A DNA stretch of 64,000 bases from Cymodocea nodosa (taxonomy: Eukaryota; Streptophyta; Magnoliopsida; Alismatales; Cymodoceaceae): the NCBI GenBank assembly GCA_036874045.1, contig CM072341.1:8878501-8942500 (forward strand). Reading direction: 5' to 3'. The position numbers and the translations under genes are program-made. The notes under the pieces are model-generated. The model was not told where the DNA came from. It was given only the letters and a program-made list of their open reading frames with translations, and ran no database searches. Below, one piece after another: positions 3,700 to 61,485 of this stretch; positions within the stretch are counted from its first letter, which is position 1, and every line of letters starts with the position of its first letter.

Positions 3700-4306
3700 T
3701 TATACACGTGGTGAAATTATAAGTTACGAATGTTATATTGTATCACGTGAGGTGCACATGTTTAACTCATTAAGTTAACATAACTAAACGCGTTGAGTTG
3801 CTATATTGAACACTAAGGCAATGCGTTAGGTTAGCGTTATAAACTCAAGTTGTTATTTTTGCACGTGGTAAAATTCTTATTATAAAAACATTTGTTTATC
3901 ACTGGTTCATTGAGTTATCGTAATACAACGAAGATGGTTCGTTGAGTTAGCATAACACCATAGACTTAATTTGTTGAGTTAACTATAGTACTAGTCACGT
4001 GAATTGGCACATGAGGAACTCGTTAAGTTAGAAACATTAAGTTATATATATACTTGTGTTACTCATTTAGCTAACATTAAAGTAACAACTTCTTATTACA
4101 TTCATGAAAAAAAAAAAAAAATTTAGACGAGAAAGTTTATTTTTCAAGAAATTTTTCAGAGATTCAAGGCTGATGATTAAAGAAAATTCAAAATGTAAAC
4201 GTGGGTCAGAACATGTGTATTTCGATGAAGGAAAAAGAAAAGACGTGAAGAAGTGGAAAACTAGTAGTGATTAAACGTGGAGGATATGCATGAAATGAAG
4301 ATACAA

Positions 4307-5139: not shown

Positions 5140-7218
5140 ATGGCTATTGGAAATGGTAATTTTTCTTTATATGAATGTCAAAATCTTAATCGTCCTCCTT
5201 TATTTGATGGAATACATTTTGAATATTGGAAATATAGGATGACTATTTTTCTTCAAAGTATAGATCATAAGTTGTGGGTCATGATTTCTAAACCATATAC
5301 TCTGTTATCTACCCCTTATAATTCTTGGACAATTACTGAAAAAGAAAATGAAACTCTAAATGCTAAGGGCTTAAATATTTTATTTTGTGCATTGAGTTAT
5401 GAATAGTTTAGTAAAGTGTTGGCATATAAATTTGCTTATGAGGTGTGGCATGCATTAGAAGTTTCACATGAAGGTACTTCTCAAGTTAAAGAGACTAAAA
5501 TAAACATGTTGATTCATAAGTATAAACTCTTTAAGATGCATGAAGACGAAAGTATTTCTAAGATGTTTTCCAAATTTCATGATATCATAAACTCTTTAAA
5601 ATGCTTAGGAAACAATTTTGAACAGAAGGATTTGATGAGGAAAATTCTCAGATCCCAAAGTTCTAAATGGTCTCAGAAAATAACATCAATTGAGGAATCA
5701 CGAGATTTAAATGTTTATACCATGAATGAACTTATAGAAAACTTAACAGCTTATGAAGTTCAATTAAATGAATCATTAAGTCACAACAAACCAAAAATGA
5801 AGAAAGAAATAGCCTTCGAAATTAATTCAGATTCTGATATATCTACTGATTCTAATGAGGATTTGATTTTGTTGACTAGGAAATTCAAGAAAGCATGGAA
5901 AGCTAGGAAACAGCAAAGGAATAAGAATGATAAACCCTCAACGTCAAAATCACTGAATGACAAGAATTCTTCATCTAGAAAGTATGTATGTTACAACTAT
6001 AAGAAACATGGACATCTTTCTCTAGATTGTCCTATAAGGAAAAATGAAAAGCAAAGTAGGACAAATCAGAAGAAGACGGCTTAAAAAACTTAGAAAAAGT
6101 TTTACAAGAAAAAGGCTTTGAAGGTCACTTGGGATGACACGACTGAAGAGTCTGAATCTGAGAAATCATCATCAAAATCTTCACATTCAGAAGGAGAACA
6201 AGAGTTAGAAGACGTTGCTCATGTATACTTCATGGCAGATGAGTCTGAGGTAATATCTGATCTTGAAAGTCATTCAGATTTTAACTTTGATGAATTATTT
6301 TGTGCTTATCATGCATTATTACAAAAACTTAAAGTTTATAAACTGGAAAATAAGAATATTAGAAACTCTTTATCCATTATGGAAGAAGAAAATTGTTTCC
6401 TGTCTACTACTTTAGAAAAGTTTAAATGTGATAATGAAAATCATGCTAGAGATTTGCATAAATTTAGATTTAATGAATGTGTCTTGCATGAACAAATACA
6501 GAATACAAATGCTGAAAAATTAAAGATAGAATCTGAAAATGAAATCTTGAGAAAAAATATAAATGAACTTGAATTAGAGATAGATAAATTAAAACTAAAA
6601 GAGCTAGATTTAAATTCTACCAGTGAGAAATGGAATTTAAGTCAAACTAAATTAGACAAACTAACTAGTACCCTTGCGGTGTCATATAAATTTGGCCTAG
6701 GATTTGATTATCTTGAATCTCAAGCCAATAAAGGATTTATTAGTTGTAGTTCAAGTAAATCTAAGACTAAAATTCCTTTTATCATGAAACAAGGTAATAA
6801 ATATGTAGATGAATCATGTAGTAATAATATAAATCAATGTGATTTGTCAAATTGTACTTCATACATGACTATTAATGTTTCTAAAAATCTTGTTTCTTGT
6901 TCTGGAAATTTAGTTTCTAATGTCCTTAAAATTTCAAACAATTGTAGTAAACTGAAAATACAGAAACCCGAGCATGTAATTCAAAACACTGGTGTTAAAC
7001 CAATTACACATTCTGCATGTGATAAATCTGAAAATTCTTGTGAAGAAAAAGATTTTGTATGTACAGAAAATGTTAATACTAGTACAAAATCTTGGTATGA
7101 ACTTACTGAAATGTATGAGCATGACCAAAATAAATTAACATCTAATAAAAATCGATTCGGTCTTGGTTATACTACATCTGAAAAAAAAAGAATGATTATA
7201 AGAGTAATAATGCTATAA
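5140..7218 (+). pseudogene. SIRE-A gag (broken)
   Basis: Capsid-type polyprotein of the SIRE lineage. ATG at 5140 opens a frame with a UBN2-like gag core (PPLFDGxxFEYWKYRM, then EVWHALEVSHEGTSQVKETK), an acidic linker, a CCHC zinc knuckle at about 5989-6030, and a long coiled-coil region (6290-6650). In the knuckle the second Cys is Tyr (CYNYKKHGH), whereas SIRE-B keeps Cys. In-frame stops: TAG 5404-5406 (also present in SIRE-B), TAA 6082-6084, TAG 6091-6093. A one-base deletion in the A run near 7185-7192 shifts the frame, giving the stop at 7216-7218, so gag and pol are no longer in one frame. The true reading continued toward the HWVPRK motif at about 7344 and then the protease. Confidence 0.88.
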
Positions 7219-7406
7219 GTAAATATGATGTTAAAAATAAGTCTATAGTACTTAAAACTAATAATAATGTAAATGATAATGTTAAACTATTTTTAAACAA
7301 AAAGAAGAAATATGCGTTTAATGAACTTGGTCCTCAACAACATTGGGTACCAAGAAAAAGTTTTTCTTAATTTGTTTAGCAAGAGGAAACAACATCAAAA
7401 TGGATC

Positions 7407-10400
7407 TTGGATAGTGGAGCATCAAGTCAGATGACCAGACAGAAAAGTCTGCTACAAAATTTTACAGATACCATGAAAGGAAGTGTAACATTTGGAAACA
7501 AAAGCAAAGATAAAATCATAGGTATGGGTAATGTTCAAATAACTCCAACTTGTGTTATTTCGAATGTACTATATGTAGAAAACCTAGGATTTAATTTGCT
7601 AAGTGTTATAAAACTAACTGAAAATGGATATTATGTAGTGTTTGAAGATAATGTATGCAAAATTATTGATAAAAATACAGATGAAATTAAGTTCATTGCT
7701 AAAAGAAAAGGTTCTATATGTATTTTATCTTTACCTTCTGGTGTAGTTGATTTAAATTCATGTTTGTTAGCTGAAACTAGTGAAGCATATCTGTGGCATA
7801 GAAGGATTGGGCATATAAATATGAAGCTGTTACATAAACTATCTAGAAAACATTTAGTGAGAGATTTACTAAAGATTAAATACTCAAAGGACTTTATGTG
7901 TGATGCATGTGAGTTAGGTAAACTTCACAAAAACTCTTTTAAATCCAAAACTGATATTTCAAGCAAGAAAGTCTTAGAACTTATACATATGGATTTATTT
8001 GGACCAACAAGAATCATGAGTCTTAGTGGTAAACGGTATGTATTTGTTTTAGTAGATGACTTCTCTTGATACACTTGGGTATATAATCTAACATCTAAGA
8101 CAGAAGTTTTTCAAAAGTTTAAAATGTTTTGCAATCTTGTTCAAAATGAACAAAGTGTCTCTATTCAAAAACTTAGGAGTGATCATGGTACTAAATTTGA
8201 TAATGATCAAATGGATAATTATTGTTATAAGCCTAGCATTGATCATAGATTTTCTTTTCCAAGAGCACCGTGTCAAAATAGTGTTGTTGAGAGAAAGAAT
8301 AGATCACTTCAAGAGATGGCCAGAACTATGTTGAATAAACATAAGTTACCTCAAAATCTTTAGGCTGAAGCAATGAATACAGCTTGTTATGTTATTAACA
8401 GAAGTCATTTAAGACCTCGTGTTAATAAAACTCCTTTTGAAATTAGGTTTAACAGGGTTCCAAAAATTTTCTATATGAAACCATTTGGCTACAAGTGTTT
8501 TATTCTTAATACTAAGGATAAAAGGGATAAATTTCAAGCCAAAGCGGATGAAGGAATTTTTGTAGGTTACTCTACTAGAAGTAAAGCCTATAGAGTATAT
8601 AACAAGACTTCTAGAACTATTGAAGAAACCCTCCATGTAAGCTTCAATGAAAATTCTTTTAAAGAATCTCAATCTAAAGCTGATAATGATGATATGATCA
8701 ATCTCCCAAAAGAGTTAGAGATCAATAGAGAGATTGAAGATTTATTTGAGAAAATCAAAAATATGAACTTAAATGATCAAACTAATGATGAAAGTGATGG
8801 ACCTTCAGATGTTGATGAAAATATTGAGGAAAATCAGAGAAATTGGCATTATTCCTCATCACATCCCATTACTCAAGTCATTAGTAATATTAATGAGGGA
8901 ATTAAAACTAGAGCTTCAGTAAATTTAAATAGTATGTGTATGTTTGTTTCTATGGTGGAACCAAGGAATATACAAGAAGCATTATCTGATGAAAATTGGA
9001 TAGTGGCAATGCAAGAACTAAATCAATTCATTAGAAATGACGTTTAGGAATTAGTCTCTCCACTAGAAAATCAGTCCATAATAGGTACAAAGTAGATCTT
9101 TAGAAACAAAACTAATGAAACTGGTCAAGTTATAATGAACAAAGCTAGATTAGTTGCACAAGGGTATACACAGGAAGGACTAGATTATGATGAAACATTT
9201 GCTCCTATGGCTAGGTTAGAAAGTATTAGAATATTATTAGCCTATGCTTGTTATATGGATTTTAAATTATTTCAAATGGATGTAAAGAGTGCATTTCTAA
9301 ATGGTTTAATTAATGAAGAAGTCTATGTAAAACAACCACTTGGATTTGAAGATATTAAAAACCCTGACTTTGTGTATAAATTGAAGAAAGCCTTATATGG
9401 TTTGAAGCAAGCACCTAGATCATGGTATGAAAGATTATCTACTTTTTTAATAGAAAAAGGCTATATCATGAGAAAAGTGGATCATACTCTATTTATCAAG
9501 AGAGACGGTAAAGATCAAATTATTGTTCAAATATACGTGGATGATATAATCTTTGGAGCAACCTCTGATAAGCTGATAAAAATATTCTCTGAAGAGATAA
9601 CTAATCAGTTTGAAATGAGTATGATAGGAGAACTTTCATATTTTCTAGGACTTCAAATTAAGCAAATGAATAAAGGTATATTTTTAAATTAGGAAAAATA
9701 TGTAGATAAAATGCTTAAGAAATTTAATTTTAATGATATAAGGATTCGAGGAACTCCTATGAGTACTTCATTAAAGTTAGATATTGATAACATAGGAAAA
9801 TCAATAGATCAAAAAAAATACAGAAGTATGATTGGTTCTTTACTTTATTTGACTGCTAGTACACCTGATATTTTGTTTGTTGTGTGTGTTTGTGCTAGAT
9901 TTCAATCTAATCCTAAAGAATCACACTCAATTGCAGTTAAAAGAATATTTAGATATATACAAGGAACTAAAAATTTTGGACTGTATTATTCTAAAGATAG
10001 TTCAATAAGTCTTATAGGATATACTGATGCTGATTATGTAGGATCTAAATCTGATAGAAAAAGTACTAGTGGCACATGTCAACTATTGGGAAACAATTTG
10101 GTGTCATACTTTAGTAAAAAGCAAAACTATGTAGCACTTTCTACTACGGAAGCTGAATATGTTGCTGCTGTACTGTGTTGCACTCAAATTCTGTGGATAA
10201 GGCAAACCTTAGAAGATTTTAGATTATCTTATGATACAACTGAGATTTATTGTGACAATAATTCTACAATAAATCTTTCCAAAAATCCTATATTACATTC
10301 TAGAGCAAAGCATATAGAGGTTAGACATCATTTTCTAAGAGATAACGTAATTAAAGGAAAAATTAAATTAGAATTTATGTCTAGTAAAAATCAATTAGCT

Positions 10401-12071: not shown

Positions 12072-12399
12072 ATGGTCTCCAAGTTCTACAAAGGTCATGG
12101 CAGAGGAAAAGGCAAAAGTAGAGGAGATGCAAAAGGAAAAGAAATAGAGAATGATGAAGTTCCACACACTTGGTTCAAGAAAATATTTCAAATGGACAAA
12201 AGGTTAGCAGAAATTTATAGTGATTACTTCTTTCCTCAAGGTATACTAGATGAAGTTAGACAAGAGCTTCAAAATACTAATGAAAATATTACATACATGG
12301 GTATTTGTAGTAAATTTGATAGAGAATACAGAATGAAATGTGTTGAGATTGCATTTCTCGAGTAGTATGCAAAATATTTGGAAAAAGGTGTAGGTACAT
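12072..12399 (+). pseudogene. SIRE-A envelope-like ORF, 5' part (split by Athila)
   Basis: ATG at 12072 starts a basic N-terminus (MVSKFYKGHGRGKGKSRG) followed by VPHTWFKKIFQMDKRLAEIY. TAG at 12363-12365 replaces a probable Gln. The frame then continues to 12399, where the Athila element enters inside a threonine codon. The frame resumes at 29891 without a shift once one TACAT copy is discounted. No signal peptide or membrane segment is evident in this half, so 'envelope-like' is a positional label only. The open frame extends 5' to 12048 without another ATG. Confidence 0.8.
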
Positions 12400-13938
12400 T
12401 GTTCAAGCTTTAATTTTGCCCAATTTTAATGAATTTTATAAGTAATTTTGCATGATATTATCTATCTATGGTGGATAAATGATATTAATTATGGGTAATA
12501 TAAGTCTTAAAATATAGTGCAATATAGAAATTTAATTAACAAGTGCATCCCCCATTGGATATAATTTTACATGGAACACATTGATTTATTTTGAATGTCC
12601 TATGTTAGCTAATGTCTCTTGGAGTTCAACTTCCATTAATTGTAGGTAACATACATATGAGAGGAGCTTAATGCAAAATAGCAAAGAAGATGTAAAGAAT
12701 CAAAAGTTGGTGGACTAAACTTTAAAGAAGAGGACATGCCAACACCCTATTGGCCCTCCTATATCTATGGCATCTTATTGGCTTGGTGATAAAACCAAGG
12801 TGCCACATCAAAGAGAGAGAAGACACAACAACATAAATACAAGGGGAGAGGAATTTCGGCCAACAACTTGGGGTGCTTCCAATGAGAGAATACCAAAGGA
12901 GAAGAAGCTTGTAGGTGAGGCTTGTGCTTCCAACGAGAGACCATCCATTAATGTTATTCACCATTCCAAGGGCTAAAGAGAAGACGTCCAAGCTTGGAGG
13001 TGAGGTTGCTGCCAAGTTCCATTGAATTCAAAGCTCTAGAGAAGAAGAGAAGAAGCTCCTAAGGTAGTGACAGCCCTTAGAGTTTATTATTTTCTTGTAT
13101 AGAAGGAAGAATTGATAAGAAATGGTGGTGAACATCTCAATTATATGTCTTCTTAGCTAGATAGAGTTCCAATGAATGTATATGAATGTTTAATTCTTCT
13201 TTTCAACTTCTAATTTGCATCCTCTATTCACATGTATTGTTGAGGCTGTTGGTGGGGCTTTCACATGAGTGAATGACACTCATCAATGGTGGCTTGGTGC
13301 ATTTGAGTAGAAGGTGTGAATTGAAAGAAGAAGAAAATAAGTGTTGATGTTCATTTGAATGAAGAACCTATCATTTATCTCTAGTTGTTAATTTTAATTT
13401 CAGTAGTTAATTGAGTTTGTTATATCTTATATTGATCACATTTTATCCAAATCAATCTCCAAAAAGAATTTCTAATGCAAGTAGTATATTATAGTTTAGC
13501 TAGATTAGCAAATAGCATAGTTGCATGCATTTAGTATAAATTAGAATAGAGTAGCATAGTCTATTGAACCTTCTTATTTTATTTTTTTTCCTCAATTTTT
13601 ATGCATTGATATCACTTCTGAAATCACATGGAATTTGTGTGGATTTTATACTTGAATGGCTTGATAGATTTACAAGTAAAGAAATTGATTCACATCACCA
13701 TTTTCCATTACACATTGCCTTGAAACTGCATGATTTGTGAGCTTGTGTTAATTTTGATTATTCTACATTCACATGTCATTAATTTACTGAAGTATACCTA
13801 AGAGCTTGAAGAACAAGTTGAGTAATAATTGATTAAATCATAAACACAATCCTTGTGGAAGAATGACCTGTATTTGCCATGTACACCAAAAGAACTGTGC
13901 ACTTGTAGTAAAGCTTGAGCTAAAAATATAGCTCAACA
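12400..13938 (+). repeat. Athila 5' LTR
   Basis: TGTTCAAGC to GCTCAACA, near-identical to 28346-29885 and homologous, inverted, to the solo LTR at 2100-3699. A weak TATA-like ATAAATAC lies at 12833. Open frames near 12722-13015 recur in the 3' LTR only because the LTR is duplicated. Confidence 0.93.
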
Positions 13939-13944
13939 AGTTTT

Positions 13945-13962
13945 TGGCGCCGTTGCCGGGGA
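13945..13962 (+). other. Athila primer binding site, tRNA-Asp
   Basis: TGGCGCCGTTGCCGGGGA begins six bases after the LTR. It is complementary to the 3' end of plant tRNA-Asp(GUC) with its CCA tail (CCCCGGCAACGGCGCCA), the usual Athila primer. All 18 positions pair. Confidence 0.9.
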
Positions 13963-14087
13963 TTGGCAATTTGGCTTAGTTTATTTTTACCATATTTGAA
14001 GTTCTTAGTTGGTTGTTTGACAAATTTTCATAAACATATCTTTCTTGTGCTTAGTTGTGAATTTTATTACTTAAATTTCTTGCAAGT

Positions 14088-17000
14088 ATGTCAAATTTTC
14101 ATCATGATGATCCTTTTAAGTTTATAAATGATTTTTTATCTGAAAGTGCTTATTCTTATTGCCATGTAAAAGGTCATGATGAAAGCATATGTACCAGCAA
14201 GTTATTTAATATAAAAATTCAACCAGTAGAAGAAACAACTCATGTTAGTGATGAATATGATGTCTTTCATGATGCTAGTGAATTTTCTTACGATTTTGAT
14301 ATGCATAAATCTCATATTCATGATGGAAATGATGTTCATGATTGCTCTCATATTAGTAGTAGTTCTATAGAAGAGTCCATGAGGAATATAGAGAGAATCA
14401 TAGAGTTAGGAGATAGTTATTATGTCACCACTAAGCTCCTACAACAAAAAGAAGATGTAATTGTCATAGATGATGAAGAAGACTCTAATGTAGATGAAAA
14501 TGTGAATTTAATCTTAAGATCTGGAAAAACCATAGAAAGAGACATATTAGAACATGAAAGTGAAGAAAACGTAGATGAAAAGGAAGAAAATATTTTGACA
14601 AGTGATGAACATAAAGATGTAGAACTAGAACATGAAGGAGTTGAACTTGAAAAATGTTCAATAGATGAAACTAATGAAGAATTAATTGAAGAAAACCCTG
14701 TTATAGACTTAGAAATGGATAAAAAGAAAGAAGAAACATCTGAAAATATGAACAACAAACCACCATTTCCTAGTCGACTTGACAACAACAAAGAAAATGA
14801 AGCTATAAGAACCATATTTGAGAAAATCAATGTTAATATACCTATGTTAGAATTAATTAGAAAAATTCCAGCATATGGGAGGGTGCTTAAAAACCTTTGT
14901 ACCAAGCATAGGAAGCCAAGAAAAAAATTAAGCAAGCAAGTTTATTTAACCAAGTTAAGTAGTTCAATGTTGCTTGATAGTTTAGCTAAAAAATTCATTG
15001 ATCCTAGTGTTCCTCTAATAACTTGCTTAATAGGGAATGTTTTAATTGAAAAAGCATTATTAGATCTTGGTGCAGGAGTTAACGTGATGCCAAAACACTT
15101 ATATGAACAATTGGGAATCACAGGAATTAAGAAAACAAGAACACTAATTAAACTAGCTGATAGATCATATAGGAGTCCCATGGGTATTGTAGAAGATGTC
15201 TTAATTCAAATTGAAGATTTTATATACCCAACCGACTTTATCATTTTAGAAACCAATGCACCAACTTGTGAACCAAATGAATCTACATTGATCCTAGGGA
15301 GACCATTCTTAGCAACTATTAATGCCCACATTAATTACAGAAATGGTAAAATGTCAATCTCCTTTAACAATAAGGTGATATCATTGAACATTTTTAAAAG
15401 AGATAGGACTATAAACCATCAAGTAGATGACAACATTAGTGTAAACATTTTTAAATTATTTGAAGAAGTCGAAAATAGTAGTAATGAGGAAGAACTTAGT
15501 GCTGAAATTTGCTTTCTAGACATTGAAGACAATCTAGAACATAAGGCATGTTTACAAGAGAATAGTGGTGAGCATGAAATGAATAATGACTTGATTTTAG
15601 AAGTTAAGGAAAGGACTAAATTAAAAGCACTTCCACAAAATTTGAAATATGCATTTATAGATAAGAAAAATGAATATCCTGTCATAATTGGAGAAAACTT
15701 AACCCCAAACCAAGAAGAAAAATTAATGAAGATATTAAGTAAAAACAAAGGAGCTCTTGGTTGGCAATTGAGTGATATTGTAGGAGTTAGTCCCACTATA
15801 GTTCAACATAGAATTATCCTAGAAGATGAGAACTATGCCTTTAGAGAACCTCAATGTAGATTAAATCCCCAAATGAGTGAGGTGGTAAAGAAGGAGATAG
15901 TTAAATGGCTTGACAATGGCATTATATACCCTATTAGTGATAGTAGGTTGGTAAGCCCTGTGCATGTAGTACCTAAGAAATCAGGCTTTACAGTAGTTGA
16001 AAATCAAGATCATGAGTTAGTGTCTACTAGAATAAAAACTAGTTGGAGGGTATGTATTGATTATCGTAAATTGAATTCAGCAACTCGTAAAGATCATTTC
16101 CCATTACCATTTTTTGATCAGATGCTAGAAAGGTTAGCTAGACATGAATTTTATTGTTTTTTTGATGGATACTCTAGGTACAACCAAATACCCATAATCT
16201 CTAAGGATCAAGAAAAGACTACTTTTACTTGTCCAAGCGAAACATATGCTTTTAGGCGTATGCCTTTCAGTTTATGTAATGCACCTGCAACATTTCAAAG
16301 ATGCATAGCAGGAATTTTTTATGATATGAATGAAAAAATTTTAGAAATTTTCATGGATGACTTTTCTGTTTTTGGCAAAATATTTGATATTTGTTTACAT
16401 CATTTAGATATGGGTTTGCAAAGATGTGTTGAAAAGAACTTTATTTTAAATTGGGAAAAGTGCCATTTCATGGTAAATGAAGGCATAGTTCTTGGGCATG
16501 TAATATCTAATAGAGGGATTGAGGTGGATAAGGCAAAAATTGACGTTATATCTCATTTGCAGCCACCTAAATCTGTTAAGGAGGTTAGAAGCTTTCTAGG
16601 GCATGCTGGTTTTTATCGTAGATTTATTCATGATTTTAGCAAGATAGCAAGACCTATAACTAATTTACTTGCAAAAGATTCTAAGTTTGTTTTTGATGAA
16701 CATTGTCTTGCTACCTTTAATCAACTTAAGCATGCATTAATATCTCCTCCTATAATCCATGCCCCAATATGGGATTATCCTTTTGAAATTATGTGTGATG
16801 CCTCCAATTATGCAGTAGGTGCAATCCTTGGGCAAATAATTGATAAGAAACATCATGTCATATGCTATGCTAGTAAAACTTTGAATAAAGCTCAAGTAAA
16901 TTATACTATCACAGAAAAAGAATTTCTTGCTGTTGTTTTTGCTCTAGATAAATTTAGACTATATTTAGTTTGCAATCAAGTTATTGTGCATATTGATCAT

Positions 17001-18512
17001 GCAGCCATTAAACATTTGATGAGTAAAAAAGATGCAAAACCAAGATTAATTCGTTGGGTTTTATTGTTGCAAGAATTCAACATAGAAATTAAAGATAAGG
17101 TTGGAAAAGAAAACTTAGTTGCTGATCACCTCTCTAGATTTGAAAATATTCTAGCATGCAATAATGTGATTAATGAAAAGTTTCCTGATGAGAGTTTATT
17201 TCTAGTTGGTAAGTTACCTTGGTTTGCAGACATTGCTAACTATCTTGCTACAAGGTTAATACCAACTGATTTATTTAAACCAGAAAGGAAAAGATTGAGG
17301 TACATGGCTAAACATTATGTTTGGATAGAACCTTATTTGTATAGAATGGGTTCTGATCAAATTTTAAGAAGATGTCTTCCTGAAGATGAAATTGCTAATG
17401 TCTTAAATTTTTGTCATAATCATGCTTATGGAGGTCATTTTAGCCATAAAAAAACTTCTTTGAAAATTCTTGAATGTGGATTTTATTGGCCTTCTCTAAT
17501 TAAAGACTCTAAAGATCATTGTAGACATTGTGATAGATGCCAAAGAATGGGAAAAATTTCCAAACAAAATATGATGCCTTTGAATCCTATCATTGAAGTT
17601 GAAATTTTTGATGTTTAGGGCATTGATTTCATGGGACCATTTCCCACTTCTTTTGGTTATTCTTATATTTTGTTGGCTGTTGATTATGTTTCTAAATGGA
17701 TTGAAGCTAACCCAACTAAGAGAAATGATGCTAAAGTTGTTGTTGATTTTCTTAGATCTAACATTTTTGCTAGATTTGGTATTCCAAGAGCTATAATTAG
17801 TGCTAATGGACCTCACTTTTGTAACCGAGCATTTCAAATGGCCTTGAGGAAGTATGGGGTTACTCACAAGTTAGCAACACCATATCATCCTCAAACAAGT
17901 GGGCAAGTTGAGGTATCCAATAGACAAATCAAGCACATGCTTGAAAAAGTAATCAAACCAAGTAAGAAGGATTGGGCAGAAAAGCTTAATGATGCACTTT
18001 GGGGTTATAGGACTACCCATAAAACTATATTGGGAATGTCACCATTTAGAGTAGTTTATGGGAAAGCATGCCATTTACCTATAGAAATAGAACATAAAGC
18101 AGAATGGGCTATTAGAACATTTAACATGTGCGTTGATGATGTAGAAAAAGTAAGAAAATATCAACTCAATGAGCTGGAAGAAATAAGAAGAGAGGCTTAT
18201 GAAAATGCAAAGATTGCAAAAGAACGAGCAAAAGCATTCCATGATAAGAAAATTTTGAGAAAGGACTTTCATGAGGGATAAGAAGTTTTATTATATAACC
18301 CTAGATTACATTTGTTCCCTGGAAAATTTAAGACTAAATGGACAGGACCATTCATCATTAAACATATATATAATCATGGAGCTATAGCTATAGAAAATTG
18401 TAAGACAGGATTTAAAACTGTAGTGAATGGTCAAAGACTTAAAGAATATTATCCTGGAAAAACCTACAATCATGGAGAGAGTGCTTTGTTGTTGGAACCC
18501 AATTATAATTAG
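14088..18512 (+). pseudogene. Athila pol: protease-RT-RNase H-integrase (two stops)
   Basis: One frame of 1475 codons with two internal stops. Residues 1-250 are acidic and low-complexity and contain a LILRSGKT motif that in relatives marks the gag/protease linker. Protease: ALLDLGAGVNVMP (about 325-337). RT: WRVCIDYRKLN (about 655) and FMDD in EIFMDDFSVFG (about 760). RNase H: EIMCDASNYAVGAILG (about 900). Integrase zinc finger H-H-C-C at about 1105-1150 (HNHAYGGHF...CRHCDRC). Integrase core: the first D (GIDFMGP) lies just after TAG 17616-17618, which replaces the Trp of WGIDFMGP. The second catalytic Asp is Ala (ISANGPHF, 17799-17822). Glu is kept (SGQVEVSNRQ). TAA 18279-18281 replaces a probable Gln before VLLYNPRLHLFPGK. 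The ORF starts about 125 bp after the primer site, leaving no room for gag upstream. Confidence 0.93.
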
Positions 18513-18821
18513 TTTTTATATGTATTTAGTTGTAGATGTAGTTTTTCTTTTCTTAATTCTTATTAATTTTTCATTCGATGTATTAGTGTGTTAGTAGTTA
18601 ACAATAAAATTGATTATTGCAAGTTCACGTCAAAATTTTATATGCTTATTATCATGCATCTATCCATGTTGTTTCATGTCATCTTGAGTTTATATGGTGA
18701 ACCATTCATGCTGAAATTTTATGATATATGATGGTACTTGTATACTTTGATGATATTTCACCATGTAAATAACTCTTGCATATACTCTTGAATTACATAA
18801 CTGATGTGAATGTCTTAGTGC
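18513..18821 (+). other. Noncoding spacer between pol and gag of the Athila element
   Basis: About 309 bp of AT-rich DNA with no ORF in the relevant frame. If gag at 18822 was ever expressed from the full-length RNA it would need a spliced message, internal initiation or an internal promoter. I see no recognisable signal. Confidence 0.6.
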
Positions 18822-20183
18822 ATGAAAAGTTGGGAGAGAGGCGCAGATAACAGGTTGATACGCATCAAGAATCAAAAAGAAACACACATTGCAGCAAACA
18901 ACAATGAGAGGAGGGTGGTGCTCAAAGACATGTTCTATCCTACACAGAGAAGTAGGATCACTTGCATTCAACTACGAGATGAGAATGGAGCACATTTTGA
19001 GTTGAAATCCCACTACATCAGCCAATTACCTAAGTTCATGGGACACGATGATGAGGATGCTTATGGCTTCCTTGAAGAATTTGAAGATGTATGCAATTTA
19101 ATGAAGATACAAAATCTGATAGATGATTCCATCCTATTGAGATTTGTTCCCTTCACCTTGAGAGATGGAGGAAGAAGGTGGCTTCAAAGTTTACCCCCCA
19201 ACTCTATTACTTCATGGAAACAATTTAGTGCCATCTTCTTGAAAAGATTCTATCCAATTGCCAAAACAAATGAGATGAGAAAGGTTATTAATTCTTGCTA
19301 TCAAATGCGAGAAGAATCATTTGCTAATTTCTTTAGCAGGTTCAATGAATTACTTGTGAGGTGTCCACATCATGGGATACCCTTGTGGAGACAATGCCAA
19401 ATCATGTATGATGGAATCCCTACATTAGTAAAGGGTTTGCTGGAATCCATGGTGCAAGGAGACTTTGCAGATCTTGAAAACACAATGGCATAGAACTTCT
19501 TGGGAGAGTTAGTGGCAAAGACATTAAGTTGGGAAAAATCCTCTCCAAGATCTGAAACAAGGCAAGAGAAGGGCATTCATTCCATAAATGCAACCACGGC
19601 CCTTGAAATGAAATATGGAAGCCTATTGAAAAGGGTTGAAGCAATAGAAGGAAAAGGAAAAGAACCACTCAAGTGCTTAGGATGTAATATGGTAGGCCAT
19701 ATTGTGAATGAATGTACTATGTTGGCTAACCCTTCTGTTGATGTTTAGGAAATATACACAAGGAACAATCAAAGGAAAGAAGTTTATGGCAACACCTACA
19801 ACCCATCTTGGAGGAACCACCCAAACTTTTCATGGAGAAACTCACATTTTCAAGATAATCAACATGGTGAATCCTCAAATTTTCAAGGCAATCAACCTAC
19901 ACAAAATACTATGGAATTGGCTAAGAAAAATGATCATTCAGTAGCAATAGAAGACATGGGAAAGAAGATAGACAGCTTGATAAAAGGCATGGAAGCATTT
20001 GCCATGAACAATGCTAAGTATCAGTTAATTGTGCATGCTAATGCACAATCAATCAACAAGATAGAGGCACAACTATCCCAAATATCAGCAAGACTTTGCG
20101 AGAGGGAGAAAGGAACCATTCCAAGCCAAGCTATAACAAATCCACGTGTCAACCAAGTGGAGACAACTTTAGGAGAAGAGTAA
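18822..20183 (+). pseudogene. Athila gag, located downstream of integrase (two stops)
   Basis: ATG at 18822 opens 454 codons in one frame with TAG at 19491-19493 (Trp in relatives) and TAG at 19746-19748 (probable Gln). The retrotransposon gag (capsid) domain is clear: VLKDMFYPTQRSRI, HYISQLPKFMGHDDEDAYGF, LEEFEDVC, LRFVPFTLRDGGRRWL, FLKRFYP, FNELLVRCPHHGIPLWRQ, then ETMA-type and LSWEKS motifs. A CX2CX4HX4C zinc knuckle (CLGCNMVGHIVNEC) follows at about 19675-19716. The tail has NTYNPSWRNHPNFSW and ends at NPRVNQVETT, the point where relatives run on to ITLRSGK and protease. That continuation is instead found at the start of pol, 4.7 kb upstream. The domain is complete, so this is displaced rather than truncated. 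Confidence 0.9.
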
Positions 20184-20574
20184 AGAGAAGCATCACTTGC
20201 AACCAAGAAGATAGCTAGAGTTAACCTTTTATCTCCACGACTTAGGCTTGGCTTATTTGATGAGAGACTTATTTTATTTCATGCTTGAGATGCTTAATTT
20301 TAAAGAACAGAATTTGATGATATATTTGAAAGTAGTTAGATGCATGATTTTCAAATACTTGAAGGGTGTAGAATGGGTTGAAAGACTTTATCATGATATC
20401 ATGTGTTTGTTTGACAAATTGATGTTCAACCATGTTTGGGTCTTACCAGCACTACACTAGAAAAACTTGGATTTATTACTTCTGTTTTTACTTAGTTAAT
20501 TTATCTTTATGCCTATTCTTTCTTTTAGAAGTAAACAAACAACCTTTAATATAATTTAGATATTAATTCCAATT
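20184..20574 (+). other. Athila internal noncoding sequence before the insert
   Basis: Unremarkable AT-rich sequence after the gag stop, up to the probable insertion point of the reverse element. CAATT at 20570-20574 is the candidate left target duplication. No gene supported. Confidence 0.5.
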
Positions 20575-20720
20575 TGTTCTTTAACTGCAAGTGCACAATG
20601 TCTATTGTATCAGTGTGCAAGTACAGGTCGATCCCACAGGGAATTGCTGACGAACTTGAGAACTATTCGTTTGTTAAAAATCAAATTTATATATTCAATA
20701 AGCTCTCCGTTGAATTACAG

Positions 20721-20819
20721 CTAACTCAACGGACTAAGTTCGTTGAGTTATGGATAACTCAACGGACTAAGTTCGTTGAGTTATGGATAACTCAACGGAC
20801 TAACCTCGTGAACTTAAGT
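20721..20819. repeat. 33-bp tandem repeat of hairpin-forming units
   Basis: Three units, two almost perfect. Each contains TAACTCAACG, a 9-base GACTAAGTT loop, and CGTTGAGTTA, so every unit is an inverted repeat with a 10-bp stem. The third unit decays. Similar half-sites lie at 21590-21630 and 22585-22750. Confidence 0.8.
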
Positions 20820-21145
20820 TAACTCCACGAGCCTGCCTATTCTTTTTAATACTGCTATTTACAAAGGAATTCGGCCAACCATTGGGCGATTCCACAGATT
20901 GTAAATAACATCAATTAAGCTCTTTAATGTTAGTTAACATTGGATTTATCATTGAGCAATACTAACATTCAGATAATTCAAATAGTAACCATTAAAATCT
21001 TTAAGTCTTTTGAACGAACCAATTTCAGTAAACTGTAAAACTAAAACAAACATAAAACAATCACAACACTAATAAAGATAACATTAATCACGATACAACA
21101 CAAACAATACAACACTCAAATACAACATACAAACATAGATAAATT

Positions 21146-21985
21146 ATTTTTGGTATTTTTGTTTTAATATGAACATGGAAATGGGCGAAAGGTGAAATGT
21201 AAAGTAATCTCACTTGACAGTAAATACTTCCGACACTACTTGCAACGCAATTACACCATTGAAAATTAAACCACTTACAATCCTGTCTCCTCTCCCTATA
21301 GAATCGTGAGTCCAGAATTGCAAGATGATCTCCTCTTCAGCATACAGGCATCAATCCTATCTCCATCGATCACACCCTTCTTCTTTTTTTCTTCTTTTCT
21401 TTTATATTTCTTAAGTAGTAATTACTTCTACTTGAATGATCGATTGGATTTCCTTCATTCATATCAACGGTGATGATTTTTTTTCCCTATGCAATTGAAT
21501 TCCTGCGTGATACGTGCAAATGTGGTTTTTCCTTCCAACTGTCCTGTTTCTGCAACTGCTACAGTGGCATATTAGAAAATATATAGTCCGTGGAGTTACA
21601 GATAACTCAACGGACTTTCTTCGTTGATTTAACTATAAAACACGTGCATAAATTTAACTATCCGATGCTCAGGTGCATTTCGGATACTTATAAACTTAAC
21701 TATCAGATGCTCAGATGCATTTCGGATACTTACAAATAACTCACTGATATATAACTTAAGTAAATCTACTAGATCTCAACATGTGTCAACAGTAGTTTAA
21801 TCATAAAATAACATTTCAGAGAGTTACAGGTCTAACTACCCGATGTTAAGATGCATTTCGGATAGTTACAGCTAACTCATCGATTCAGTAATAAACAAAT
21901 GTTTTTATAATAAGAATTTTACCACGTGCAAAAATAACAACTAAAGTTTATAACGCTAACCTAACGCGTTGCCTTAGTAATCAAC
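21146..21985 (-). repeat. Direct repeat, copy 1 (LTR-like, of the reverse insert)
   Basis: Nearly the same sequence as 25406-26503, from TTATTTTTGGTATTTTTG to the CTAACCTAACG(C/T)GTTGCC motif. Copy 1 lacks about 270 bp present in copy 2 (about 25617-25889). Contains CACGTG boxes and TTCGGATA motifs. Could be the remains of an LTR pair, but the flanks do not give a clean LTR boundary. Confidence 0.7.
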
Positions 21986-22369
21986 CTACAAATATACTTA
22001 GAATATATGTAAATTACATACAAAGTATATCATCATCATATAGGTGTTAATTATATTATCGTTTGTTCTTCTTTTCATCATCTGTCATCATGAATTTTCC
22101 AAAAAGATTTCTAAAAGAAATTTCAACAACATACGAATCAAAATACAATCTAATTCAATATGATTAAGACAAGTAGAATAAAGAATTGTATCTCCATTAA
22201 ACAACTTCAGAAGTTAATTACAGATTCATATTTCAGCAATTCTAGATAACAGAAAATATACTCGATTCATAAGATATCTGTATTTCACAAAACACTTATA
22301 TCTTTTCAGAACAATATATGTATTTTTTCTTTTTTCTTTTTTTTTTCTTTTTTTTTTCGTACTTTAAAA

Positions 22370-22560
22370 GTTAATTTGACAAGCTTGAATCATACAAGAG
22401 CTTTCTAATGTACCCATGTAATGAGCTTTCAGTCAACAATCCCAGATCTGATCAGGATCTTAGGTTGTCAGATTTTAAGAGTCCTTTTTCAGGTCAACAA
22501 TCCTTACATACCTATCTGCTCAAGTATAAAAGGCTCGTGATCAAACAAGTCAATAAACTC
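22370..22560 (-). repeat. Inverted copy of the SIRE pol-env spacer block
   Basis: Reverse complement of SIRE-A about 10985-11205: AGATCTGATCAGGATCTTAG, TCAACAATCCTTACATACC and CTCGTGATCAA all match. In SIRE-A this block precedes the envelope-like ORF. Here, read on the minus strand, it follows it. This indicates rearrangement. Confidence 0.75.
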
Positions 22561-23189
22561 TCAATTTTTTTTTTTTTTCAATCAACCTCGTTGAGTTACA
22601 GATTACTCAACGGAACACAGTCGATTACTGTTGCTAACTCCACGGACTAACTTCGTTGAGTTATAGATAACTCAACAGAGTGACCTTATATTATATTACT
22701 GACCTCGTGGAGTTACGGTTAACTCAACGAACTTACTTCGTTGACTTAACACTTAGCAACAACTAAGTTTTACTCTCGTAAGTGTTTCTATTCTGTTTTT
22801 TTATTATTTGCTCTGTCATTCTACTAACTGTAATAAAGTTAAATCTATCATTAATGCCTCATTTTGATTAAAATACATTTAAATCTAAACATTATATAAA
22901 TATTTAACTTGCAGGTCATTTTATGTTATGTAGAATTTATATTTTACCTTACAACATGCAGAAATTTTTAAGTAGTTATCCTGTCATTCAGCAAATTGTA
23001 AATCTGTTACATATTCATTCATAAAGTTCCACAAATTACTTAATTTTCAATAAATTCCATTCATTCTCACATCCAACACACGTATGAAAATTGCATCTGA
23101 AAAATTATCTTCAATAATATGAATCAATTACAATAAAAGTACATCATACAATTTCATACAATTTTACATAAGTAGACGAACAATACAAT

Positions 23190-25320
23190 TTAATCTCTAT
23201 GCCTAAGTTCATCTACTTCCTTCTGGAGTTTTTCTAATTGAAGTTCTAATTGATTAATCCTCTCTACAGCTCCTGTAATTTCTCCAAAAGGTACTGCTAG
23301 TTCTGTAGCTACAAAATTTCTGTATTCTTTCACTGAAATGGTTCTTGATCTGATCCTTTTTGATGTCCATTTAGTGAAATCAATACAGTCCACCATCAGT
23401 AGTGGAATCAAATCTCCATAAAATTATTTCTTCTTCACTATTTTCAGCTTGGAGATAAAAACTGTAGACCAATTTATTTGGATCTTATTTACAACTGCAT
23501 ACGTGGCCCATTTGACAAATTGACTTAATTCTATGTCATGGCCCTATAGTTGATAGACATTCTTAATTAGAATGTTAGCTACCATGTGTGTTTTACCATT
23601 TAAATGCTTCAATCTATTTAATAATGGCACACCAGGATTGATAGCTAAACAATCCTTAATTTGCTGCTCAGTCCATTTAACTGCAGTTGTATCTTCCAAA
23701 ATTTTTATTCCTTCATTCTTTAAACCAAATATGTTGTGGAGAAGCTCTGGTGTTATCTGTACATCAGCTTCCTCCACGTTTGAAATTAATCCTCCTTCTC
23801 TTTCTCTCAAATTTGCATAGAAACAGGGCACTAAATTTTCATATACTGCATGCCCTCTTTCTTGAGATAAAAATTGCAGTAGACCTTGAAATTCAAATAG
23901 ATCTTTGATTTCTTGCATTCCATCCCAATTTACTAGTCTACTATAAATAATATCGTAACCCCTTATTTCTTGGTATTTGGTATAAGCTTCCTAACTACAA
24001 AAATGTACTTCATTCAAAATTATTGTTTCAGTCGGGTCAGGAAGGTGACTTTGTTGCTCCTAAAGGGTTTGTACTTGTTCTTCCTCTAGCATAGGCTGCA
24101 TTTGGACATTCTCTTCAGATTCCTGAATTTTTGCTTTTGCTTCTGTCTGTGGTGGTGAGTCGGTAGAACTCTCAACTCTATCTTGAATTCTTTCCATAAT
24201 TTGCTAAAGAGTTTCTTGCTCTTTAGTGGAATCTGTGAAATTATTTTTGTCCAAATGGCTTCTTTCAGCCTCTTCATTTTCTGCTCTTTCTTCTTCCTCC
24301 TAACTACCAATCTGTTTTGTTACTGTACTTTCTGATTCTATAACAGATTGGGATGGAGTCACGAGCAATTCAGTTTCTGCCCTAATTTCTGTTTCTTCTT
24401 GTACAGGCTGCAAACTAATTTCAGCCTGATTTTTTTCTTTTCTTTGTTCCTCCTACTCCTCCTCAGATTCGGATAGCAGGTTAATAAAAATATGCTCCAC
24501 AGGCCCTGTAAAAATTGGTACTTCAAATTTAATTTCTTCATATTCAAGCACTTTTTCTTTTCCTTTCTTTTTTTCTGATTAGTTGTGCCTGTTCTTCCTC
24601 TTCATCTTCTGAAATTAAATCTACAAAAATAGGCTCTATAGGCCTTCGAGCCATAGGTATTGGCTCTTCCTGTTTAATTCTTCCAATAATTGCTGGTCTC
24701 GAAGGACCAGCTTCAGCTTCTTTTGCAACATATCTAACAGCAGTTCTGGCAGTAGCTTCTTAATGTTGTTCCACTTTAATTTTATATTGGGCTTTCAACT
24801 TTTCTACAACCCTCTTTTTGTATAGTGCATCAAACACTAGGTGTGCTTTAGCCACTACCAAATCTTCTGATTCTCCTTGGTTTTTTCCAACTTGAACCAG
24901 TTCTGCAAATTCTCTTATTTCTTCTTTAGTTGAAGGCCCCATCATTTTTGCTCATGCCAATGGCTTAAATGGTGGAACTGAAGGTCCAAACTATTGCTCC
25001 TCAGGAACAGGTCTTTCAGCAGTTGGTTCCTCCCGTTCTTCAGTTGCCTCTTCATTTTCTTTCCTTTCTTGCTCCTAGATCGCCCATTTAGCTCGTCTAC
25101 AGATTCGTCTTTTGAACCTGAGCTGGGACTTACGCTGGATTAATTCTAGGGCAACTTCATTACTTGGCCTTACTTGTCTTTCCTTGCTTACAACTACTTT
25201 TGTTGCTATTCTGATTCATGTTTCCATTATTTGAGGTATTTGTGTACTCATATCTACTAAATCTCTTCTAAACTTGAAAAGTTCTGATTCTACTGTTCTA
25301 GATTCTAAATGATTTACCGG
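23190..25320 (-). pseudogene. Envelope-like ORF of the reverse insert (decayed)
   Basis: Read on the minus strand, an acidic Glu/Lys-rich first half (24945 down to about 24060, many stops) is followed by a domain at about 23990-23544 containing YTKYQEIRGYDIIYSRLVNW, MQEIKDLFEFQGLLQFL, CFYANLREREGG and IFGLKNEGIKI. The SIRE-A ORF has the same pattern (MEIRDLFEYQGLIQFL, VFYSNLVKNE, VLGLKNEG). The domain resembles the 'putative plant transposon protein' family found beside plant retroelements. A short coiled coil (INQLELQLEKLQKEVDELRHRD) ends the ORF at 23190, where SIRE-A has a Gln-rich tail. Stops and frame changes throughout. Function unknown. Confidence 0.65.
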
Positions 25321-25405
25321 ATAATACCCTTAAAACCCTAAGTTTTAGTTTAAATAAGCCCTAAGTTTAGGCGGGTAATCGGGTCATTTCCTGAACCAAC
25401 TATTA

Positions 25406-26503
25406 TTTTTGGTATTTTTGTTTTAATATGAATATGGAAATGGGCGATAGGTGAAATGTAAAGTAATCTCACTTGACAGTAAATACTTCTGACACTACTT
25501 GCAACGCGATTACACCACTAAAAATTAAACCACTTACAATCCTGTCTCCTCTCCCTATAGAATCGTGAGTCTAGAATTGCAAGATGATCTCCTCTTCAAC
25601 ATACAGGCATCAACCCGAACCCAAGGCTAAAAGCTTTACGATCTCCTGAAATATGAGTCGGCACTTGGTGAAAATGGCTTCCCTTCCCGCGACATGATCA
25701 CTCCTCACAGTGGTTGTCAAGCACTGTGTTTGGCTCGGAATCGACCCGACATCAGGCAAGTATCTTCACAGACCTCTGATGGTTGGTGATTATGGTGGTG
25801 GTAATGATGGTTGGTGTGATACTTCGGAGAATCGCCGATACTGTCTGCAGAAAGCTCGGTGCTCCTCCTCTGTATACACTGGTCGTCCATCAATCACACC
25901 CTTCTTCTTTTTTTCTTCTTTTCTTTTATATTTCTTCAGTAGTAACTGCTTCTACTTGAATGATCAGTAGGATTTCCTTTATTCATATTAACGGCGATGA
26001 TTTCTTTTCCCTACGCGATTGAATTCCTGCGTGATACGTGCAAACGTGGTTTTTCCTTCCAACTGTTCTGTTTCTGCAACCGCTATAGTGGCATATTAGA
26101 AAATATATAGTCCGTGGAGTTACAGATAACTCAACGGACTTTCTTCGTTGATTTAACTATAAAACACGTGCATAATTTTAACTATCCGATGCTTAGGTGC
26201 ATTTCGAATACTTATAAACTTAACTATCAGATGCTCAGATGCATTTCGGATACTTACAAATAATTCACTAATATATAACTTAAGTAAATCTACCAGATCT
26301 CAACACATGTCAGCAGCAGTTTAATCATAAAATAACATTTCGGAGAGTTACAAGTCTAACTACCCGATGCTTAGATGCATTTCGGATAGTTACAACTAAC
26401 TCACCGATTCAGTAATAAACAAATGTTTTTATAATAAGAATTTTACCATGTGCAAAAATAACAACTTAAGTTTATAGTGCTAACCTAACGTGTTGCCTTA
26501 GTG
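25406..26503 (-). repeat. Direct repeat, copy 2 (longer)
   Basis: Second copy of the 21146-21985 repeat, with an extra block at about 25617-25889 that copy 1 lacks. Beyond 26503, inverted SIRE LTR sequence continues to about 26720 (ACACATTAACTTAATGTTTA), which copy 1 does not have. Confidence 0.7.
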
Positions 26504-27063
26504 TTCAATATAGCAACTCAATGCGTTTAGTTATGTTAACTTAACGAGTTCGTCTCTTCTTTTACTCACTAACTTAACGAGTTATCAAAACATGCACTGT
26601 TCATGATACAGAAGATATAACTTTAAAACATATCATGCTTTTCAATAAAAACACACATTAACTTAATGTTTAGCTAAATGAGAAATTAATGCAACGAAAC
26701 GACTAGTTGTTAACTTTAGGAAACTTTCAAAACATAACTGCTCGACAATTTAAACATAACTATCTGATACATATTCGGTCTGTTAAACATAATTGTCTAA
26801 ATTTGTTCGGTATGTTAAACATAAATGTCCGAAATATCAAAAAATTCGGATACTTAAGAATTTCACAGCCTACAACTTACCGATAGTTCATAAATGTACT
26901 AAATTAACATTAATTCCCCCAAATTAAGCAGATTCTTCAATTAAAGCATATAATAGTGCAATTATAACATAATAGCTTAATTCATATATGATAAGCTAAA
27001 TATTGTGCAATTAACCATCATTTAACCGTTAATAATATGCACTTTTTCATTCTAAACAAACCA

Positions 27064-28332
27064 CAATTAGAGTTAAATACATTTTATCTACACCACTTGA
27101 AGAGCAGTGCACAACAGGTATGCGCTAACATTTTTTTACTTATTCTTATTGTTGAAACAATCCTTTCTACATTAAGGACAATGCAGGAACTAAGTGCGGG
27201 GGGAGGAGAAAGTAAAAAAATGTTTTTAGGGTGCATACTACATCAATGAAATTGAAAATTTTCCAAATGTAAGTTTCTTTCACAAGCATGTTGGTGGTAA
27301 GTTTGAAAATCTGTTCTATATGTTGCATGCCACCATGTTTTATATGTATCCATGGTAAGAACTTGCATGTCAATTTTTTTTTTTTGGAAATAGCTTTGTT
27401 AGTTTAATTTTGATTTTGAATTATTGCATCTTAGCCTTACCAGCATGCTACTCAATCTCCATTGTATGCTCTTAAGGTTAAGATCATTAATTCTTTATTA
27501 GTTTTAGCTTTGTTTTTATTTGAACTTAATTTCTTTTTGTGGCATGTTGAATTTTCCTTAGTAATGTTCTTTCCTTATGATGTCTTACACTTAGAGCTGA
27601 GCTTATCTTTAAGGTGAGGATAGGAATATGCATTTGAGATGCCAACCATAGTTTCTTACTTATAACATATACACATTCTTGCACTAGACTCTTAATCATG
27701 TGGTATCTAGAGGACTCTTCTTATGACATGAATCTTGAGGAGTGGCTTAAGACATCTTTCCAATAAGTTGTCCCATGAGAAGGGTAGATATATGAATTTG
27801 GGAATAAGGTTTGATACCCGTTCTCATAAGGTTGCTGGGGACGAAGGCTAAGTAACCTCTTAGTCTTCATGTGTAAACCCTTTATGGAAAAAAAAAAAAA
27901 AAGAGAAAGAAAGAAAAAAAGAAGAAGAAGTTGTTCTATAGAATGAATAAAGAAAATACTTTTATAGAATCAAAAAGAAGAAAAACTCAATTGAAAATAA
28001 AGGGGCAATGTACTAGAGGATAGAAGCCTAAAGAAACCTTCATGTATTCTTGGATTAAGTGAGATGAACCTAGGTGCTATTGATTATGGGTCTAAGCACT
28101 TTGCACTTAATAGTATCTTAAAAACTTATTTTCCTTAGGTTGGCATTAGATGTCTATTCTAAATTCCTCACCATTACAGGAACTCAGCTTGTGAGTGGAG
28201 ATTATCTATAAGTATTGTTGCATTACTTGGCGAGAATTTGATTTGCCTTAATTTTCTTTATTGTGTTTGTTTGTTTCAAGGGGTTCCTTAATCTTTTCTT
28301 CTTTAAATTTTGCTAGAGGACTAGCAAAGTCT
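27064..28332 (+). other. Athila 3' noncoding region
   Basis: About 1.3 kb without a supported gene, continuing the Athila element after the insert. Holds an internal polypurine-like GTGCGGGGGGAGGAG at about 27196, an A/AG-rich tract at about 27887-27930, and a region of plain AT-rich sequence. Long noncoding 3' regions are usual in Athila. No envelope-like ORF is visible. Confidence 0.6.
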
Positions 28333-28345
28333 AAGTGTGGGGGGG
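28333..28345 (+). other. Athila polypurine tract
   Basis: AAGTGTGGGGGGG directly precedes the TGTTCAAG start of the 3' LTR, the expected place for plus-strand priming. Confidence 0.85.
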
Positions 28346-29885
28346 TGTTCAAGCTTTAATTTTGCCCAATTTTAATGAATTTTATAAGTAATTTTGCATG
28401 ATATTATCTATCTATGGTGGATAAATGATATTAATTATGGGTAATATAAGTTTTGAAATATAGTGCAATATAGAAATTTAATTAACAAGTGCATCCCCCA
28501 TTAGATATAATTTTACATGGAACACATTGATTTATTTTGAATGTCCTATGTTGGCTAACGTCTCTTGGAGTTCAACTTCCATTAATTGTAGGTAACATAC
28601 ATATGGGAGGAGCTTAATGTAAAAGACCAAAGAAGATGTAAAGAATCAAAAGTTGGTGGACTAAACTTTAAAGAAGAGGGCATGCCAACACCTTATTGGC
28701 CCTCCTAGATCTATGGCATCTTATTGGCTTGGTGATAAAACCAAGGTGCCACATCAAAGAGAGAGAAGACACAACAACATAAATACAAGGGGAGAGGAAT
28801 TTCAGCCAACAACTTGGGGTGCTTCCAACGAGAGAATACCAGAGGAGAAGAAGCTTGGAGGTGAGGCTTGTGCTTCCAACGAGAGACCATCCATTAATGC
28901 TATTCACCATTCCAAGGGCTAAGGAGAAGACATCCAAGCTTGGAGGTGAGGTTGCTGCCAAGTTCCATTGAATTCAAAGCTCTAGAGAAGAAGAGAAGAA
29001 GCTCCTAAGGTAGTGACAGCCCTTAGAGTTTATTATTTTCTTGTATAGAAGGAAGAATTGATGAGAAATGGTGGTGAACATCTCAATTATATGTCTTCTT
29101 AGCTAGATAGAGTTCCAATGAATGTATATGAATGTTTAGTTCTTCTTTTCAACTTCTAATTTGCATCCTCTATTCACGTGTATTGTTGGGGCTATTGGTG
29201 GGGCTTTCACATGAGTGAATGACACTCAACAATGGTGGCTTGGCGCATTTGAGTAGAAGGTGTGAATTGAAAGAAGAAGAAAATAAGTGTTGATGTTCAT
29301 ATGAATGAAGAACCTATCATTTATCTCTAGTTGTTAATTTTAATTTCAATAGTTAATTGAGTTTGTTATATCTTATATTGATCACATTTTATCCAAATCA
29401 ATCTCCAAAAAGAATTTCTAATGCAAGTAGTATAGTATAGTTTAGCTAGATTAGCAAATAGCATAGTTGCATGCATTTAGTATAAATTAGAATAGAGTAG
29501 CATAGTCTATTGAACTTTCTTATTTTATTTTTCTTTCCTTAATTTTTATGCATTGATATCACTTCTAAAATCACGTGGAATTTGTGTGGATTTTATACTT
29601 GAATGGCTTGATAGATTTACAAGTAAAGAAATTGATTCACATCACCATTTTTCACTACACATTGCCTTGAAACTGCATGATTTGTGAGCTTGTGTTAATT
29701 TTGATTATTCTACATTCACATGTCATTAATTTACTGAAGTATACCTAAGAGCTTGAAGAACAAGTTGAGTAATAATTGATTAAGTCATAAACACAATCCT
29801 TGTGGAAGAATGACCTGTATTTGCCATGTACACTAAAAGAACTATGCACTTGCAGTAAAGCTTGAGCTAAAAATATAGCTCAACA
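28346..29885 (+). repeat. Athila 3' LTR
   Basis: Matches 12400-13938 end to end. It is followed at once by TACAT (29886-29890), the second copy of the target duplication, and then by the resumed SIRE-A envelope-like frame. Confidence 0.93.
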
Positions 29886-29890
29886 TACAT

Positions 29891-32350: not shown

Positions 32351-32364
32351 AAAAAGGGGGAGAT
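32351..32364 (+). other. SIRE-A polypurine tract
   Basis: AAAAAGGGGGAGAT immediately before the TGTTGAG of the 3' LTR. The same tract precedes the SIRE-0 3' LTR at 34557-34570. Confidence 0.88.
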
Positions 32365-34050: not shown

Positions 34051-34055
34051 CTATT

Positions 34056-61471: not shown

Positions 61472-61473
61472 AG

Positions 61474-61485
61474 TGGTATCAGAGC
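61474..61485 (+). other. SIRE-B primer binding site (initiator tRNA-Met)
   Basis: TGGTATCAGAGC, two bases after the LTR, the unaltered copia tRNA-Met site. Confidence 0.9.

Follow-up and report, generated by a model that had tools for sequence, protein, structure and literature searches.

Athila-like LTR retrotransposons with gag behind integrase in Cymodocea nodosa

The order gag before pol is generally held to keep Gag in excess. Plant LTR retrotransposons are described with gag first in PMC7264820, PMC6317226 and PMC2533021. The closest described elements are Athila, Calypso and Diaspora, which share a tRNA-Asp primer-binding site (PBS), long LTRs and the domain series protease-RT-RNase H-integrase with the family reported here, named F1 (PMC1142308, PMC2533021). 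They differ from F1 in placing gag before protease, Diaspora as a single 1892-codon gag-pol ORF and Medicago Mtr60 as GAG-RT-IN, whereas gag of F1 is a separate ORF behind integrase. The Athila ORF-1 (PF03078) is reported for 16% of Athila elements (PMC6317226).

The window analyzed here is a 64,000-nucleotide stretch of contig CM072341.1 from the Cymodocea nodosa genome. A first-pass annotation of its letters proposed an Athila element at 13939-20183 with the order LTR, PBS, pol, 309-bp spacer and gag, and suggested that the internal region had been cut at the gag/protease junction and rejoined end to end. The genome was searched for the same arrangement, and the results identify F1 as a young family in which the window element is a decayed copy.

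Results

The window element

The element has the structure of an LTR retrotransposon, with two LTRs ending in TG...CA, a PBS, a polypurine tract and TACAT on each outer side (Table 1). Self-comparison of the window defined the LTR pair as direct repeats. Both LTRs and the perfect 5-bp target site duplication (TSD) had been annotated and were seen. The annotated coordinates cover the internal coding part; the whole element spans 12400-29885 and includes a nested insertion of ~6.6 kb. An LTR divergence of 2.6% and the rate of 1.3e-8 substitutions per site and year used in PMC2533021 date the insertion to roughly one million years ago.

Table 1. Coordinates of features in the window element
Feature	Position	Strand	Remarks
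TSD TACAT, 5' side	12395..12399	.	
5' LTR	12400..13938	+	97.4% identity to 28346-29885; TG...CA
PBS TGGCGCCGTTGCCGGGGA, tRNA-Asp type, 18 bases	13945..13962	+	
pol ORF	14088..17618	+	N-terminal module, LRSGK, protease, RT, RNase H, integrase zinc finger; closes at in-frame stop in window copy
Zinc-knuckle site, Pol N-terminus	14151..14192	+	YSYCHVKGHDESIC in window copy
LRSGK motif in pol ORF	14514..14528	+	
Integrase remainder (rve)	17619..18512	+	pol end 18512; stop 18279-18281 in window copy
309-bp spacer between pol and gag	18513..18821	+	six in-frame stops beyond pol stop; same spacer in 20/20 copies
Stretch absent from gag-minus derivative	18646..20343	+	present in window copy; ATGC at both ends
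gag	18822..20183	+	Retrotrans_gag domain; end NPRVNQVETT
CCHC knuckle of gag	19674..19715	+	
Nested insertion, ~6.6 kb	20434..27064 (approximate ends)	.	later, in 3' UTR; outside F1 family
Polypurine tract	28334..28345	+	read directly
3' LTR	28346..29885	+	pairs with 5' LTR
TSD TACAT, 3' side	29886..29890	.	matches 5' side

By Pfam matches, the ORF at 14088-17618 encodes RT, RNase H and an integrase zinc finger, the integrase core (rve) falls within 17631-18281, and 18822-19493 holds Retrotrans_gag (E = 6.9e-18). The Ty3/gypsy series protease-RT-RNase H-integrase is thus present within pol, with protease below the curated Pfam cut-off, but gag, which precedes protease in that type, lies behind integrase here and in 20/20 further F1 copies. 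The annotated order from LTR to gag is borne out by the repeats, the Pfam domains and the spacer. The gag domain had been called complete, and it, the zinc knuckle and the C-terminal NPRVNQVETT are all present, but two stops (19491-19493 and 19746-19748) prevent gag from being one open frame in this copy. Two others interrupt integrase (17616-17618 and 18279-18281). The LRSGK motif, said to open the pol ORF, does lie in it but follows ~140 residues that include a knuckle site.

The window element has a tRNA-Asp-type PBS and LRSGK ahead of protease, which we take to be a mark of the Athila lineage; with the domains, these features suggest that it is Athila-like. The tRNA-Asp assignment for this lineage comes from the literature (PMC1142308, PMC2533021). 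The PBS has 298 exact places in the genome, and its reversed control has 0.

The nested insertion is flanked by ACCAT/ACCAC and contains direct repeats at 21143-21984 and 25402-26508. On its minus strand, an ORF at 23547-23990 matches Transposase_32 below threshold. Elsewhere in the window, F1-LTR-like fragments lie in inverse orientation at 2098-2698 and 3303-3705, and Ty1/copia-type pieces (Retrotran_gag_2, Pol_BBD, GAG-pre-integrase and SH3_retrovirus) at 5407-9044. DNA related to parts of the latter region recurs at 31225-36131 and 59894-64000.

Recurrence and transposition of F1

The 374.6-Mb genome was searched with 401 bp of DNA comprising the integrase end, the spacer and the gag start. 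There were 135 candidate places, and all 40 that were scored, window included, have 97-100% identity across 399 bases or more, a recurrence that rules out a chance junction. The sole match of this genome to a poplar plastocyanin has 71% identity, which marks a plant, apparently one other than poplar. In a protein search with gag, which scored the best 150 of 5684 candidates, F1 accounts for at least 71 rows at 70 places with 79-100% identity, after which identity drops to 48% and below.

The 20 F1 copies ranked next after the window by gag score were fetched. All read LTR-leader-pol-spacer-gag-3' UTR, and none has gag between LTR and pol. Two (L016 and L029) have internal pol deletions, and 8 have no more than a partial or variant 5' LTR. 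The pol frame is open for 1480-1482 codons in 7/20 copies and the gag frame for 453 codons in 7/20, with both open in one. A full 5' LTR and a read 3' end were available for 10 copies, of which 7 have perfect, mutually different 5-bp TSDs; the other three comprise a 4/5 match, a member of a tandem array and a copy without an assigned TSD. Over LTR tails of 321-419 bases, 6 of the 8 copies measured have 98.4-100% identity; the other two, at 94.7 and 95.6%, differ mostly by gaps. The uniform order, separate TSDs and near-identical LTR tails indicate that F1 transposed, and did so recently, in the pol-gag order, as the first-pass annotation had thought possible for the window element.

Four copies (L012, L015, L024 and L029) share an LTR in which the middle (~393-941 of the window LTR) is unmatched. 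They form a subfamily by LTR but keep the internal order. In L011, the family's own 3' UTR and polypurine tract precede the 5' LTR, forming a tandem array with a shared LTR.

Gag and RT loci on the same strand were also paired by coordinates if no more than 12 kb apart. This comparison drew on 109 of the 150 gag rows and on the 107 F1 RT loci found among the best 150 of 6772 candidates. A same-strand gag was paired with 45/107 RT loci; it is downstream in 45 (43 at 2874-2931 bp) and upstream in 0. With 92 of the 298 PBS places used, an exact PBS lies within 8 kb upstream of 14/36 F1 RT loci (five contigs), always at 1964-1988 bp.

The stops and the nested insertion in the window copy are what might be seen if this locus were a local rearrangement, a misassembly or a decayed nest formed by chance. 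Against such a single-locus event stand the recurring junction, the 45:0 pairing, the 20/20 copies in the same order and the 7 different perfect TSDs, which refute it and leave it a negligible probability. The first-pass annotation had named a junction confined to this locus, or a normal gag upstream of pol in other copies, as outcomes against its reading; the genome search instead returned many insertions with their own TSDs, and no upstream gag in any copy whose start was read.

A gag-minus derivative

No gag match was found at 62/107 F1 RT loci. Two of these gagless loci were fetched. Both have 1490-codon open frames at RT, and both lack the same stretch, which starts in the spacer, reaches into the 3' UTR and is bounded by ATGC on either side (Table 1). 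The deletion junction has 50 exact places in the genome (reversed control, 0). It lies within 6 kb downstream of 43/62 gagless RT loci and not of the other 19, and 7 junctions have no RT locus among the matches listed. The ATGC at both ends, with no GT...AG, does not support the deletion being a reverse-transcribed splicing product. The gag-minus form is a propagated derivative with one identical microhomology junction, and it presumably must obtain Gag from elsewhere.

Divergent relatives

Three loci reached through gags ~39-48% identical to F1 (L030, L031 and L032) also read RT-RNase H-integrase and then gag. Protease was seen in L030 and L031; the L032 sequence begins inside pol. In the type represented by L031 (F3), gag is downstream in 8/8 RT-gag pairs, obtained by comparing 52 gag rows with 43 RT loci more distant from F1. 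These and the following counts describe top-scoring samples rather than a census. Five of these 43 RT loci are followed by a gag at 6.0-6.9 kb; one of the 5, with its gag at 6.9 kb, also has a same-strand gag 5.1 kb upstream, and this upstream gag may be a neighbor's.

Eight primer sites were sampled outside F1. Six belong to another type, F2, and lead into protease without gag; of the other two, L046 is an F2 element with an internal deletion and L053 matched no pol or gag piece. An exact PBS lies within 8 kb upstream of 7/42 F2 protease loci, all at 1244-1359 bp, and of 2/10 more distant RT loci, at 2143 and 2192 bp. These distances, like those in F1, are too short to accommodate gag between PBS and pol. 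Gag follows F2 protease at 6.2-7.9 kb in 7 loci and at 12.0 kb in an eighth, and no same-strand gag was found within 15 kb upstream of F2 protease among the matches listed. In four further pairs, the two partners are on opposite strands.

The integrase end of L033 matches F2 at 80% over 703 bp, and an ORF lying between its integrase and gag matches Transposase_32 below threshold (E = 0.0026). From this match and the intervening ORF, F2 appears to read pol, an extra ORF (~3 kb between) and gag. L054 falls into a nested insertion and is silent on the F2 3' region. The longest open frame among the best 150 Retrotrans_gag matches is 677 aa; one L031-type gag among the 96 rows listed lies in a 1219-aa open frame.

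The pol-gag order therefore extends beyond F1 to several families of one genome. No gag-first relative or donor was found among the matches listed in this genome, and no relatives elsewhere were confirmed in collections of viral contigs and genome contigs.

Zinc knuckles, constraint and origin

The ~140 residues of F1 Pol ahead of LRSGK contain a CX2CX4HX4C knuckle that is in frame in 19/20 copies. Its first residue is Tyr in the window copy and Cys in 19/20 other copies, the 20th being frameshifted. A knuckle ahead of protease is also present in L030, L031 and F2 (5/6 F2 starts, not L049; also L046), and separate Gag knuckles are present in the window, L030, L031 and L032. Only 11-21 residues separate Met from the knuckle in the three Pol starts read, so no capsid domain is hidden upstream. 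Gag was correctly placed 3' of pol by the first-pass annotation, but simple end-to-end rejoining is unsupported because, in each of the four types with an observed pol start, the N-terminal part of Pol has a knuckle of its own. The possibility that this part is a copy of the gag C-terminus was rejected, as the F1 Pol N-terminus has no significant similarity to gag (best E 0.19).

Another origin would be capture: the 3' gag would be a second, complete gag that an ancestor took up where env would lie, with another Athila element as donor, and then spread, and the Pol knuckle would be what remains of a decayed 5' gag, so that the present order arose by capture and loss rather than permutation. 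This proposal concerns origin and leaves present function aside. The presence of a knuckle in Pol is compatible with it, as are the frequent recombination and the gag-only and gag-env forms described for Athila families in PMC2410132. The lack of similarity between F1 Pol N-terminus and gag argues against it, as does the failure to find a gag-first donor among the matches listed, and we regard capture as rather unlikely. The pol-gag order probably arose once, in the ancestor of F1 and its relatives.

Between types, gag pN is 0.22-0.46 and pS is 0.75-0.84, near saturation. That pN is well under the nearly saturated pS indicates that the Gag protein has long been kept. Within F1 (18-21 sequences each), the capsid part of gag has a pN/pS of 0.27 and the remainder of gag 0.53, and pieces of pol range over 0.40-0.80; the copies were picked by gag score, which favors a low gag value. 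The gag capsid part had no match below E 0.27 among solved structures.

Expression of Gag

Although gag is in the frame of pol, six further in-frame stops separate them in the spacer, and a Pol-gag fusion made by read-through is rejected on this ground. Gag must initiate separately. The first-pass annotation had called for a message of its own or internal initiation; the stops bear out the separate start, and a message of its own is suggested by candidate splice sites, scored against general splice-site frequencies. A donor-like CAA/GTATGT lies over the F1 pol start codon and ranks at the 97.5th percentile of the coding sites in the window, although LTR sites score higher. In L031 and L032, acceptor-like sites precede the start of gag by 74 and ~84 nt, at the 99.3 and 99.8 percentiles. 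The acceptor-like site next to gag is weak in F1, where 1731 of 2000 shuffles reach it, and ordinary in L030 (942 of 2000 shuffles). In the integrase-gag gap of L031 (4740-5010) and L032 (2850-3110), acceptor-like ATGCAG/G is followed 20-24 nt on by donor-like GTAAGT or GTGAGT, as if the pair bounded a tiny exon.

With the donor-like site over the pol start and the strong acceptor-like sites in two relatives, a separate Gag message made by splicing is the reading we favor, with modest confidence. Gag could instead depend on a separate promoter, located in the spacer or close to it, or on internal initiation on the long RNA. The six stops fit this route too, since they exclude a fusion, and it gains from the weak acceptor-like site of F1 and from a search of the genome that found no spliced leader-gag copy for donor CTTGCAA and gag starts within 30 nt. 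The donor-like site in F1 and the acceptor-like sites of L031 and L032 weigh against it, and we consider it a less probable, tentative alternative.

In the proposed scheme, the full-length RNA would serve as genome and Pol message, and Gag would be translated from a separate, shorter RNA, most likely one from which pol has been spliced. Gag could then outnumber Pol. Pol, not being part of a Gag-Pol fusion, would reach particles partly through its own knuckle on genomic RNA, and gag-minus copies would borrow Gag in trans.

Discussion

As a whole, the data are best explained by a decayed F1 copy within a multi-family, Athila-like Ty3/gypsy group that probably has a single origin and reads LTR-PBS-pol-(spacer or extra ORF)-gag-LTR, with Gag presumably on its own message and supplied in trans to gag-minus copies. 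We hold this reading with considerable confidence. It is also likely, if less firmly so, that these families form a clade with a lasting gag/pol reversal, a Pol knuckle, Gag last on its own message and a separable gag-minus form, and that this is the first retroelement lineage described with these traits, overlooked because surveys discard unexpected domain orders. PMC6317226, a reference survey of plant elements, states that elements with an unexpected domain order were always taken out as probable prediction errors, so other groups of this kind may have gone unseen. No earlier description of gag behind pol was found in the open-access literature searched. Families have spread in the opposite order, so the gag-first arrangement is not required. 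This opens the question of how the Gag:Pol ratio is set and how Pol is packaged without a Gag-Pol fusion.

Known systems share single traits with F1. The gene order of foamy viruses (Spumaretrovirinae) is gag first. Their Pol, like that of F1, is not a Gag-Pol fusion (PMC7828637), but it is made from a spliced message, whereas in F1 the full RNA would yield Pol and a shorter one Gag. Elements described in PMC7264820 also have a sense ORF behind pol; there this ORF is additional to gag-pol, whereas in F1 no gag was found other than the ORF that follows pol. In BARE1 a spliced RNA codes for Gag alone, and its particles are used by BARE2, which cannot make Gag (PMC3735527); F1 likewise has an abundant gag-minus derivative beside the complete form. 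Unlike F1, BARE is of the Ty1/copia type and has one ORF. Expression of F1 would thus combine a BARE-like spliced Gag-only message with a separate Pol like that of foamy viruses.
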